Shown in pieces: positions 17,255 through 57,833 of a stretch of 64,000 bases of DNA. Origin of the DNA: an uncultured Erythrobacter sp. (lineage in GTDB: Bacteria; Pseudomonadota; Alphaproteobacteria; Sphingomonadales; Sphingomonadaceae); contig NZ_CANLMB010000002.1 of the NCBI RefSeq assembly GCF_947492365.1, positions 248,001 to 312,000 on the forward strand, in the 5' to 3' direction. A model generated the notes under the pieces. That model was not told where the DNA came from. It worked only from the letters and a program-made list of their open reading frames with translations, and ran no database searches. The position numbers were made by a program, and so were the translations under genes. Numbering within the stretch: position 1 is the stretch's first letter; each line of letters begins with the position of its first letter.

Positions 17255-17331
<77 letters not shown>

Positions 17332-39192: not shown

Positions 39193-39852
39193 ATGCCACC
39201 GCTGATTTCCCCATCCATCCTGTCAGCCGACTTTGCGCGGCTAGGCGAAGAAGTGCGCGCCGTCGATGAGGCGGGGGCGGACTGGATTCACATCGATGTG
39301 ATGGACGGGCATTTCGTGCCGAACATCACGATCGGCCCCGATGTCGTAAAGGCGCTGAGGCCGCATACGGACAAGGTCTTTGACGTCCACCTGATGATTT
39401 CGCCGGTCGATCCCTATCTGGAGGCCTTTGCCGAAGCGGGCGCGGATATCATCACCGTCCATCCCGAGGCGGGACCGCATGTCCACCGCACGCTGCAAGC
39501 GATCCGTTCGCTGGGCAAGAAAGCGGGCGCGGTGATCAATCCGGGCACGCCGGTTGAAGTGCTCGACAATCTGATGGACCTGGTTGATCTGGTGCTGGTG
39601 ATGAGCGTCAATCCCGGCTTTGGCGGGCAGAGCTTTATCCATTCGCAGCTTGAGAAAGTGCGCCGCATTCGCGCAATGATCGAAGCATCAGGACGGGACA
39701 TCCACCTAGAGGTCGATGGCGGCGTGAACCCTGAAACCGCCAGATTGTGCGTCGAGGCTGGCGCAGATGTGCTGGTCGCAGGCTCCGCAACCTTCAAGGG
39801 CGGCCCCGGCCAATACGCGGCCAATATTGCTGCGCTCAAGGGTCAGGGCTGA
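39193..39852 (+). CDS. rpe: Ribulose-phosphate 3-epimerase
   Basis: A 219-residue TIM-barrel enzyme that interconverts ribulose 5-phosphate and xylulose 5-phosphate in the pentose phosphate pathway. Conserved segments include [44 protein letters not shown] and EVDGGVN with the metal and catalytic residues. Its stop overlaps the next ATG (TGATG), so it is coupled to the heparinase-like gene. Confidence 0.97.
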
Positions 39853-41726
39853 TGGCGACCCTCTTCAACAAAGAGCCCGTCGAAGCCGAATTTGAACCTA
39901 TTTCCGCTGAGGCGGCGGCAGTCGGGCTCGGCGGCGAGGCAGAGCCGCAGCGCGAGGAAAGCTCCGCCATCGATGATGGCGAAGTCGGGCACGAAACCGC
40001 CCGCGCGCTTGCTCTGACCGATGTCATCGCGCCGCGCAGCAAGCCGGGCGAGGCCCTGATCCGGCTGGCCTATCGAATGGGTGTACCCGGCCATGCACTG
40101 GCCGCGCCTTTCCGCAGGCCCACTGCGACGCGCGTTCTGGCGACGGTCATGAGTCCGGTCACGGGTGACCGCACCGCTGGTATTGCGCTCAGGGCAGGCC
40201 ATTTCCTCGTCCATGGCGCCAAAACGCCTATCGGTCAGCTCGATTTCGACAGCAATGCGCGGCACAATCCCGGGCTTGAGCGGGTGGTTCACAGTTTCTC
40301 CTGGCTCACCGATCTCGCTGCGAGCGCGCCGCGCGCGGATTGTATCGCGATTGCCGAGCGGATCACTGGTCTGTGGCTCGACGCCAATCCCTCACCGGCC
40401 AAGGGGCCCGCATGGGATGTCGAGAACACCGGCCTGCGCCTGATGGCGTGGCTGGTCCACGCGCCGTTGGTTCTCGCGGGACAGGATGGGGCGCTCAAAC
40501 CGCGCCTGCTTGCCGCTTTGGCAGAGACGGCAAACTGGCTCGACCGCAAGACTGTGCGCAATGGCGCAGGGCTGGGGCAGGTTGCCGGATGGGCGGCGGT
40601 GACGGCAGCGGGTCTTTTGCTTCCCAAAGGCAAGCCGCGCAGGCTCTATGGCGAAGCGGCGTTGATCAAATCACTGGGTGATCTGGTGGCCGAAGATGGC
40701 GGCTCGCTCGCCCGCTGTCCGGCCGCGCAGATGACCGCGATCCGCGTGCTCACCGATCTGATCGCCTGCTACGAAGCCGTAGGCCGCGAGGCCCCTGAAG
40801 CGATCTGGGTCATGCGCGAGCTTCTGGTCCCGCCCTTGCTGGCGCTGCGCCACGGCGATGGTGCGCTCGGTTCGTGGCAGGGGCAGGGAGCTATTCCAGC
40901 TGACGAAGTGGCGAGCCTGATTGCTGCCACCGGGATCCGCACCCGCGCGCTCAACGAGCCGCAGCATTGGGGCTATCAGCGCCTGCGCGGCAAAAAGACG
41001 GTGGTGCAGTTTGACGCCGGTCCGCCGCCTCGCGCGCGGCACACGCGCTGCGGCTGCGCATCGACATTGGCGTTCGAGATGTCCGATGGCACCTCGCGTC
41101 TGATCGTCAATTGCGGCGGCGCGGCTTTGGCAGGCGGGCAAGTGCCTGCCCGCATCGGACAGGGCCTGCGCGCCACGGCGGCGCATTCGACGCTGGTCCT
41201 TGATGACGCCAATTCGACGGCAGTCCTGCTCCACGGCAAGCTCGGTAAGGGCGCGGAGACTGTCGAAGTCGAGCGCCGCGTGATCGAGCAGAAGGGCCGC
41301 GAGGCAACCCGTGTCGAGGCCAGTCATGACGGCTATGCCGCCCGCTTTGGCCTCACCCATCGCCGCATGTTGACCCTGCGCGCGGACGGCACCGAGCTGT
41401 CAGGCGAAGACATCCTCCTGCCGGTCAGCCGCAAGGGCAAGCGCGGCAAAGTCGGCTTTGCGATCCGCTTCCATCTCGGGCGCGGGGTCGAAGCGCATTT
41501 GAGCGAAGACGGGCGCGGGGCGAGCCTGCTCACCGCCGATGGCAAGCTGTGGCAATTCCGCCTGCGCAGCGATCCGGCGGGCAAGGACGACGTCAAACTG
41601 TCAGCCGAAGACAGTCTGTGGGTAGATGGCGAAGGACGCCCTCACGCAACCGAGCAATTGGTGATAGAGGGCCTCACATCGCGCGGCGGGGGGCAGTTCA
41701 GCTGGCTCCTCAAGAAAATGGGATAA
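39852..41726 (+). CDS. Heparinase II/III-family polysaccharide lyase-like protein
   Basis: A 624-residue protein with the helical N-terminal half and beta-rich C-terminal half of heparinase II/III proteins (HNPGLERVVHSFSWLTDL; HSTLVLDDANST; HDGYAARFGLTHRRML). No signal peptide was seen; a poorly conserved acidic N-terminal stretch of about 50 residues precedes the domain. The order rpe-heparinase-like-purH is frequent in alphaproteobacteria; substrate unknown. The start at 39852 overlaps the rpe stop; the 267-bp palindromic element begins 5 bp after the stop. Confidence 0.88.
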   Translation: MATLFNKEPVEAEFEPISAEAAAVGLGGEAEPQREESSAIDDGEVGHETARALALTDVIAPRSKPGEALIRLAYRMGVPGHALAAPFRRPTATRVLATVMSPVTGDRTAGIALRAGHFLVHGAKTPIGQLDFDSNARHNPGLERVVHSFSWLTDLAASAPRADCIAIAERITGLWLDANPSPAKGPAWDVENTGLRLMAWLVHAPLVLAGQDGALKPRLLAALAETANWLDRKTVRNGAGLGQVAGWAAVTAAGLLLPKGKPRRLYGEAALIKSLGDLVAEDGGSLARCPAAQMTAIRVLTDLIACYEAVGREAPEAIWVMRELLVPPLLALRHGDGALGSWQGQGAIPADEVASLIAATGIRTRALNEPQHWGYQRLRGKKTVVQFDAGPPPRARHTRCGCASTLAFEMSDGTSRLIVNCGGAALAGGQVPARIGQGLRATAAHSTLVLDDANSTAVLLHGKLGKGAETVEVERRVIEQKGREATRVEASHDGYAARFGLTHRRMLTLRADGTELSGEDILLPVSRKGKRGKVGFAIRFHLGRGVEAHLSEDGRGASLLTADGKLWQFRLRSDPAGKDDVKLSAEDSLWVDGEGRPHATEQLVIEGLTSRGGGQFSWLLKKMG

Positions 41727-41731
41727 GAGCT

Positions 41732-41998
41732 AGGTCGTAAACTCCTAAAGGACACCATCGAGGTTTGAGTCAAAATGGCCCAGCACGAGAAGGAAAGGCG
41801 CAGGAATACCGGCGGTCTTTCAAGCCTTTTCGACGATGGGATGGGCCATTTTGATCAAATCCTATTAGGACGCGGGAATGACTTCCATTTCGACCAAAAA
41901 CGCGCTTGGAAAGGCAACCAGCCTTCCTGGCGCGCGCTTTCGCCCAATATGTTTGTCATTCCGGCGCCTCGAAGGTGCCCTTTAGGAGTTTACGACCT
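41732..41998. repeat. 267-bp multibranched palindromic element (MITE-like or structured leader)
   Basis: Terminal inverted repeats: 20 bp perfect (AGGTCGTAAACTCCTAAAGG at 41732-41751, complement at 41979-41998), extended to about 32 bp with 2 mismatches (to 41763 and from 41967). Inside are two further inverted pairs set side by side: 41762-41782 with 41842-41862 (TCAAAATGGCCCA core) and 41871-41882 with 41955-41966 (GGAATGAC core). The latter encloses a hairpin at about 41904-41931. The whole fills the gap between the heparinase-like gene and purH. No open frame of note. Confidence 0.8.
41984..41988 (+). promoter_or_regulatory. Candidate purH Shine-Dalgarno inside the right terminal repeat
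   Basis: AGGAG lies 13 nt before the purH ATG, and no better site is nearer. In a transcript crossing the element it would pair fully with CTCCT at 41742-41746 of the left repeat, hiding the ribosome-binding site. Spacing is longer than ideal, so its use is uncertain. Confidence 0.45.
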
Positions 41999-42001
41999 GT
42001 C

Positions 42002-43591
42002 ATGACATCGACGACTATCAAACGGGCGCTGCTTTCGGTGTCCGATAAAGAAGGTTTGGTAGAGCTGGGCACGGCGCTCGCGGCGCGCGGCGTCGAACTG
42101 GTCAGCACCGGCGGCACGGCGCGGGCATTGCGCGAAGCGGGCCTCGAAGTGCGCGATGTTTCCGACCTCACCGGCTTTCCGGAAATGATGGACGGTCGGG
42201 TCAAGACGCTCCACCCCAAGGTTCATGGCGGCTTGCTCGCCCTGCGCGACAATGACGATCACGTCGCCTCGATGAAAGAGCATGAAATCGGCGCAATCGA
42301 TCTGGTTGTGGTCAACCTCTACCCGTTCGAAGCGACCGTTATGCGCGGGGCTGAACGCCCTGAAATCATCGAGAATATCGACATTGGCGGGCCGAGCATG
42401 GTGCGCTCTGCGGCAAAGAACCACGGATTTGTGACGATCATCACCGATCCGGCGGACTACGGAACGCTGCTCGTGGAGCTTGAGGCGAATGACGGCGCGA
42501 CGTCGCTGGAATTCCGGAAAAAGATGGCAGCGCGCGCCTTTGCCGCCACGGCTTCTTACGATTCGATGATCAGCCAGTGGTTCGGTTTTGCCGACCAGCA
42601 GCAGATGTTCCCCGAATTTCTGGCCGTTAACGGCAAGGCTCCGCAAGTGCTGCGCTATGGCGAGAATCCGCACCAGATGGCGGCGTTCTACACCCCCACC
42701 GGGCCGCATGTTGCGGGCGTCGCGCAGGCCGAACAATTGCAGGGCAAGGAATTGTCCTACAACAACCTCAACGATGCCGATGCCGCGCTTGAACTGGCGG
42801 CAGAATTCGCTGGTGGCGATCCGGCGGTGGTGATCGTCAAGCACGCGAATCCCTGCGGTGTGGCGCAGGGCGCAAGCTTGCTCGACGCATGGAATGACGC
42901 GCTGCAATGCGACAGCGTTTCGGCCTTTGGCGGGATCGTGGCGGTCAACACCGAACTGGATGGCGCGACGGCAGAGGCCATTGCCAGCATCTTCACCGAA
43001 GTGGTGATCGCGCCCAAGGTTAGCGCCGAAGCGCGCGAGGTCTTCGCAGCCAAGAAGAATTTGCGCTTGCTCGAATGCGGCACCCTTCCTGACCCGCGGC
43101 GCGGCGGGCTCGCGGTCAAGACCATCGCAGGCGGATTGCTGGTCCAGTCGCGCGACAATGGCGCGGTGACCGAGGCTGACCTCAAAATTGTCACCAAGCG
43201 CGAGCCGACCCCGCAGGAATTGAAGGACTGCCTCTTCGCCTGGACGGTCGCGCGTCACGTCAAGTCGAACGCGATTGTCTATGCCAAGGACGGCGCGACT
43301 GCGGGAATCGGTGCGGGCCAGATGAACCGCCGCGATTCAGCGCGGATCGCCGCAATCAAGGCGCAGGAAGCTGCCGAAACCTATGAATGGGCTGCGGCCA
43401 AGACTGCCGGAAGCGCGGTGGCCTCTGACGCATTCTTCCCCTTCGCAGACGGCTTGATCGCCGCTGCCGAAGCCGGAGCCACTGCTGTGATCCAACCCGG
43501 CGGTTCAATCCGCGATGACGAGGTGATTGCTGCTGCTGACGAGGCAGGACTTGCCATGGTCTTCACCGGAATGCGCCACTTCAGGCATTGA
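42002..43591 (+). CDS. purH: Bifunctional AICAR transformylase / IMP cyclohydrolase
   Basis: A 529-residue enzyme for the last two steps of IMP synthesis. The N-terminal IMP cyclohydrolase has [23 protein letters not shown] and [16 protein letters not shown]; the C-terminal transformylase has [18 protein letters not shown] and [10 protein letters not shown]. The start at MTSTTIKRA is family-typical; the open frame extends into the palindromic element but that part is not conserved. A GC-rich hairpin follows the stop. Confidence 0.97.
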
Positions 43592-57746: not shown

Positions 57747-57833
57747 GCGGGTGTGGCGGAATGGTAGACGCCGGGGACTTAAAATCCCCTGATCCTATAG
57801 ATCGTGTGGGTTCGAGTCCCACCACCCGCACCA
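57747..57833 (+). tRNA. tRNA-Leu(TAA)
   Basis: An 87-nt class II tRNA with acceptor GCGGGTG/CACCCGC, anticodon stem GGGGA/TCCCC with loop CTTAAAA (anticodon TAA), a variable arm (TGATCCTATAGATCG), T-arm GTGGG-TTCGAGT-CCCAC and encoded CCA. No integrated element is seen beside it. Confidence 0.96.

Follow-up and report, generated by a model that had tools for sequence, protein, structure and literature searches.

The palindromic element that lies between a heparinase II/III-like gene and purH in our window (by which we mean the whole stretch of 64,000 nucleotides of an uncultured Erythrobacter sp. that was analyzed) is very probably a MITE, that is, a non-autonomous transposon, of an apparently undescribed family of the Sphingomonadales, with mobilisation in trans by the IS5 family and arm-to-arm copying as the probable mechanism. 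In this family the two matching ends of the element have been exchanged several times while the folded middle was conserved. A mobile element of the MITE type was one of the two options put forward in the first-pass annotation, and it is the one that our comparison bears out. Judging from the sequences, terminal inverted repeats, flanking TA dinucleotides indicative of a target duplication, the lack of a protein gene, copies dispersed over many genomes and insertion sequences (IS) with the same ends all point to such an element. The category is a known one; what is unusual in this family is how well the core is conserved, together with its exchangeable, matched ends.

The element and its surroundings are organized as follows, the + strand being also the orientation of the family alignment:

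39852..41726, + strand: heparinase II/III-like gene (PF07940), upstream of the element, with its stop TAA at 41724-41726
41731..41998, + strand: whole MITE copy of 268 bp, in full-length alignment with 67 others
41731..41763, + strand: left terminal inverted repeat and outer-stem strand, beginning with the target TA, with a B-like end type (TAGGTCGTAAACTC)
41742-41746, + strand: the sequence CTCCT, in the left repeat
41764..41859, + strand: arm II hairpin, the sole large stem in which G-U changes exceed A-C changes
41860..41870, + strand: small hairpin separating arms II and III, from the family consensus fold
41871..41966, + strand: arm III hairpin, from the family consensus fold
41908..41928, + strand: tip of the arm III hairpin, part of the search motif
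41967..41998, + strand: right terminal inverted repeat and outer-stem strand, giving TG when read with the next base, where the family usually has TA
41984..41988, + strand: AGGAG, resembling a Shine-Dalgarno site, in the right repeat and predicted to be paired in the outer stem
42002..43591, + strand: purH (AICARFT/IMPCHase), downstream, its ATG 3 nt past the element

The stop codon of the heparinase-like gene is separated from the element by 4 bases, and the element from the purH ATG by 3. The inverted repeats reported previously are where they had been placed: the terminal arms (41732-41763 and 41967-41998) are 32 nt long and 94% complementary, the inner arms are present, with a second inverted pair at 41761-41782/41842-41863, and the AGGAG of the right repeat has its complement CTCCT in the left one. 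The element itself is confirmed, and its size, given before as 267 bp, is 268 bp with the T of the left-end TA included. When the RNA of 41720-42020 was folded, the predicted energy was -139.6 kcal/mol, compared to -89.2 (sd 5.2) for 100 shuffled sequences (z -9.6), and none of the 100 shuffles reached that value. A chance palindrome is rejected by this z score and by the 67 related copies that could be aligned. The family consensus fold consists of the outer stem, arm II, the small hairpin and arm III. Because of the extra small hairpin the junction is four-way, so that the branched fold with two inner arms that had been proposed holds and its three-way junction does not.

Copies were searched for with a motif of 19 exact bases, through which all of the aligned copies except that of the window were found. 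The scan of named genomes with this hairpin motif yielded at least 119 stretches, 91 of which included sufficient flanking sequence for an alignment with the window copy (92 rows). We dropped 16 rows with low identity, at least 25 missing bases or at least 30 inserted ones, among them shortened copies and chance or distant matches. The 76 rows kept include the window, and the alignment used below (A1) contains the 68 copies of 267-269 bp. This narrow length range, found in 68 of the 76 filtered copies, is partly made by the row filter, yet in as many as 50 of these 76 copies the length is exactly 267 bp. Similarly, the near-invariance of the arm III tip in the 68-copy alignment is there by construction, since the tip is part of the motif; in copies found without the motif it was largely, not wholly, conserved.

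The genome from which the window comes contains a single copy. We found matches in 3 of 61 genomes (its own, which is one of the 3, and 60 relatives), in 10 of the 114 genomes of the genus (its own counted; some of the matches are weak and that of G114 is short and doubtful) and, using another copy as query, in 45 of 396 genomes of the order, distributed over 13 of 84 genera (its own again counted). Dispersed copies in this genome and in related ones had been proposed as the mark of a MITE; they are found in the relatives but not in the window's own genome. Among the 80 stretches listed from the motif scan, most belong to Novosphingobium, Sphingopyxis, Erythrobacter and other Sphingomonadales, with a few from elsewhere, some of them due to chance. 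Very similar copies coexist in one genome in Novosphingobium aerophilum (4 copies) and Altericroceibacterium endophyticum (10 copies), with end branches of at most 0.032, and such near-identity suggests recent movement. Four plasmid records of Sphingopyxis and Novosphingobium also matched, again with another copy as query, and the phage collection gave no match to the element. Shortened relatives, with parts of the arms missing and the two ends still matching, appeared in Erythrobacter longus and in two genomes of the genus, G013 and G071 (L134, L010, L020, L022-L027). Besides, there is a divergent subfamily (L101:3491-3759, L150:6010-6276 and L197:3579-3847) in which the inner bases of the outer stem have changed on both sides.

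Among the 67 other copies, TA was found at the left flank in 55, at the right in 56 and at both in 48. The left TA was preceded by Y in 51 of 55 cases and the right one followed by R in 56 of 56, so the target can be written as YTAR; the right side of the window copy departs from it, with TG and not TA. In 29 of the 67 copies the end of the element helps to form the stop codon of an adjacent predicted ORF (at the left end in 20, at the right in 14 and at both in 5), a count that pools insertion at a stop codon with gene truncation; in two of these 29 (L129 and L165) another ORF spans the element. For the 54 copies flanked on each side by a gene predicted with an ORF heuristic, the orientation to the neighbours was ++ in 19, +- in 18, -- in 10 and -+ in 7, with the left gene pointing at the element in 37. 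At the six copies that we inspected, the neighbours were unrelated genes.

Two types of IS have ends like those of the copies, which we designate type A (TAGGSTCAGGACCYATTAA) and type B (TAGGCCGTAAACTC). Over the 68 copies, identity between copies was 80% in the core, a value raised somewhat by the motif-based finding, and 60% in the outer 23 bases of the left arm. Within one copy, the two outer arms (23 bases) were 96% identical on average. Under the stricter limits used on the core-only tree, the end classes comprised 28 A, 27 B and 13 other copies, and under looser limits 31 were A-A, 29 B-B, 6 other-other and 2 part-typed. On the core-only tree types A and B require 6 changes, or 12 if all other ends are treated as a third class, versus an average of 30.5 when the labels of the three classes were shuffled. 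Well supported branches alone require at least 5 changes for A and at least 4 for B. The window copy, of type B, joins a single A copy and another B copy in a clade that is supported at 100/99 but weakly resolved inside. In none of the 68 copies was a type A end found opposite a type B end, while 2 copies had one untyped end.

Seven IS, with lengths of 796-870 bp, were compared to the copies. The IS bordered by type A ends measure 840-870 bp. The transposase assignment covers three of the seven: L059 and L061 (850 bp, type A), each with a split IS5-type transposase in two ORFs (NF033580, PF13340, PF01609), and L209 (type B), an IS of 796 bp with an IS5-type transposase ORF (NF033580). At E <=0.01, 45 of the 76 filtered copies matched these IS, 26 of them only L209, 19 only type A and none both; the other 31 matched none of the seven. 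All 129 copy-IS matches were located at the ends and no core was matched. These 45 do not include the window copy. Its left end agrees with L209 in 17 of 19 bases (E 0.041) and its right end in 16 of 18 (E 0.15), a weak end match that is no better than a stray internal one. The IS5_3 transposase family gave no match in its genome, and no exact type B end occurs there a second time; with a single copy in that genome, the window copy is therefore an orphan. We analyzed five genomes with type B copies and found relatives of the type B transposase in four, while IS ends were recognised at 1 of 10 loci, those being of type A. In G035 there are nine type B end matches (L207, L213, L216, L218-L223), none of them farther than about 350 bases from the end of a contig, which suggests that the assembly has collapsed a multi-copy IS.

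From the end matches and the flanks, IS5-family transposases would probably move the copies in trans by way of the outer 17-20 bp, with insertion at YTAR and duplication of the TA. The element can be regarded as one large quasi-palindrome, and template switching from arm to arm during replication probably keeps its stems matched, as the strand-symmetric double changes suggest. A new IS end gained on one side could then be copied to the other by the same arm-to-arm copying, which would re-target the same core to another transposase. In the window's genome, one copy sits in the few bases that separate the stop of the heparinase-like gene from the start of purH. The conservation of the core exceeds what a passive MITE needs, and this counts against our main reading. 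Another reading, which we hold only tentatively, is that the core is an independent parasite that switches IS5-type partners. One end would be taken from a different IS5-type element and copied to the other arm by template switching in the hairpin, so gaining a new transposase, and selection, acting partly on the RNA of arm II, would keep the core of about 220 bp and its length. In such a parasite the hairpin would spare translational coupling at operon stop-start junctions, because once closed it reunites the stop and the start.

We have also examined the compensatory changes in the stems. Double changes were present in 65 of 94 pairs, above all 500 shuffles on five measures and above all slid controls, with the caveat that relatedness alone can beat shuffles on some measures. 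Covariation had been proposed as the sign of a regulatory RNA; it is clearly there, but it is no proof of RNA function, because the outer stem and arm III change symmetrically with respect to strand. Selection on an RNA should tolerate G-U pairs far more than A-C pairs. Both were counted as arising from Watson-Crick pairs, by parsimony, with a single reconstruction for each of two trees built with FastTree. In the outer stem there were 22 G-U and 26 A-C changes (and 154 Watson-Crick double changes), in arm III 14 and 20 (with 59), and in arm II 43 versus 10 (p 6e-6), or 29 versus 8 when three doubtful pairs were removed. The core-only tree gave 24/27, 15/21 and 38/10, respectively. Given that the G-U and A-C counts are alike, the two strands are equivalent in the outer stem and arm III, and the changes there fit DNA-level copying better than RNA selection. 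For the grouping of adjacent double changes on the same branch, values as high were reached in the outer stem by 11 and 0 of 500 shuffles on the two trees, against 17 and 233 in arm III and 207 and 67 in arm II. Clustering is clear only in the outer stem, and this counts against template switching, which predicts clusters.

The excess of G-U over A-C in arm II on both trees indicates that this arm may act as RNA. Extended to the whole core, this would make it an RNA under selection, either a small RNA or an element for mRNA processing, that spreads by means of IS ends, with arm II on the + strand as the working part. The predominance of copies of exactly 267 bp, the higher identity of the core than of the outer arm and the covariation above all shuffles would agree with this. 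However, we consider it unlikely, given the strand symmetry of the outer stem and arm III and the mixed orientation of the copies to their neighbours. Neither was a known RNA family found: at the gathering score Rfam gave no match to the element, and in 41600-42100 there were four sub-threshold matches, with E 0.68-9.8, in a search up to E 10. Simple scans detected no promoter-like site or terminator in 41600-42100. Over the whole window, Rfam gave just two matches at gathering score, both of them tRNA genes (17255-17328 and 57747-57830).

At the purH junction, each AGGAG base was unpaired with a probability of at most 0.0007 in three fold contexts spanning the whole element, and in folds spanning the whole element the purH ATG was open at 0.92 or more. 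When the left arm was left out (fold 41900-42060), four of the five AGGAG bases were still about 87-92% paired elsewhere. The distance between the end of AGGAG and the ATG at 42002 is 13 nt, by rule of thumb a long spacing for a Shine-Dalgarno site. Masking of AGGAG is predicted by folding and its effect on purH is putative: the pairing by which the ribosome-binding site had been proposed to be hidden is reproduced, but the spacing is long and AGGAG is, by eye, missing in most relatives. A read-through mRNA would carry a very stable hairpin with AGGAG paired. Translation of purH from it might depend on coupling across the closed hairpin or on breathing of the stem, or it might be reduced.

The gene purH was present in 110 of the 114 genomes of the genus. 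We fetched 30 purH loci, one of them the window's own, and the element was absent from the 29 other junctions read. In these the upstream stop is close to the purH start, and most have, by eye, no AGGAG in between. Such short gaps suggest translational coupling, as far as gene spacing can indicate it. Beyond the fetched loci only listed coordinates were compared: in the nine other genomes of the genus with element matches, no listed match is at purH, and the nearest distance between the two on one contig was about 3.3 kb (G007, C178). The element does not look like a purH-specific switch, and a purH leader conserved in relatives was not found. The dedicated leader of the first-pass annotation, a cis-regulatory RNA hiding the ribosome-binding site until a signal opens the fold, is therefore abandoned as very improbable; the paired AGGAG and the end of the element 3 nt from the ATG are in its favor, but they are outweighed by the 29 junctions that have a short gap and no element, by the unrelated genes beside the copies inspected elsewhere and by the 13-nt spacing. 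A small protein gene inside the element is hardly credible. One minus frame is stop-free in 25 of the 76 copies and one plus frame in 13, but no frame is so in more than 25, and the variability lacks a period of three bases: over 50 copies, the mean entropy at the three codon positions was 0.525, 0.460 and 0.521.

Other copies of the MITE are likewise found between a stop codon and a nearby start in the same direction (for example L115, L195, L117 and L144). In L115 and L195 the flanking genes are, by eye, response-regulator-like and kinase-like. These two copies (L115:4853-5119 and L195:1471-1737) seem to occupy one and the same junction of two-component genes in two genomes that resemble Sphingopyxis, where the element may supply the stop of one gene and an ATG for the next.

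There is prior evidence of comparable elements in other bacteria. The IS427 group of the IS5 family (for example IS1248 and ISPpa6 of Paracoccus) is described with lengths of 832-865 bp, inverted repeats of 13-21 bp and, in all but one, direct repeats of 2 bp, some members having two overlapping ORFs (PMC3281130). The partner IS analyzed here are candidates for this group: they measure 796-870 bp, with IS5-type transposase ORFs in L059, L061 and L209 and two ORFs each in L059 and L061. Unlike the IS427-group elements described, the MITE lacks a transposase, and what it has in common with the IS compared is confined to the ends (PMC3281130). MITEPsy1 of Pseudomonas syringae is also non-autonomous and probably moved by an IS with nearly identical ends, and it has inverted repeats of 18 nt and the target CTAG or YTAA (PMC3189936). 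It differs in its 100 nt and its 4-nt duplication, and the six copies reported in strain 1448A are identical at their ends, whereas ends have been exchanged in our family (PMC3189936). As in our case, MITEAba12 of the Moraxellaceae occurs in several species of one bacterial family; a single autonomous parent, ISAba12, is proposed for it, and neither exchanged ends nor a conserved folded core is mentioned in the abstract or the section headings (PMC6382973). QMITE1 and QMITE2 of Coxiella burnetii are MITEs with very stable predicted folds too, found through small-RNA loci and discussed at gene ends, but with sizes and repeats different from those described here (PMC5896051). Template switching has been put forward as a mechanism for simultaneous double changes in hairpin stems, the evidence presented coming from reconstructed histories of RNA genes and not from MITEs (PMC8794818).

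In a limited search of the open-licence literature, the family was not found in print. MITEs are usually grouped by their ends. Here the ends are variable and the folded middle is conserved, so that searches based on ends would split one family. The family also calls for caution in RNA discovery, since it passes covariation strongly, yet two of its three large stems are strand-symmetric; a tree-based count of G-U versus A-C intermediates is a cheap check. In the Erythrobacter genome analyzed, a mobile hairpin has been inserted just before a gene of purine synthesis, at an operon junction that appears to be coupled, and this provides a case that can be tested.
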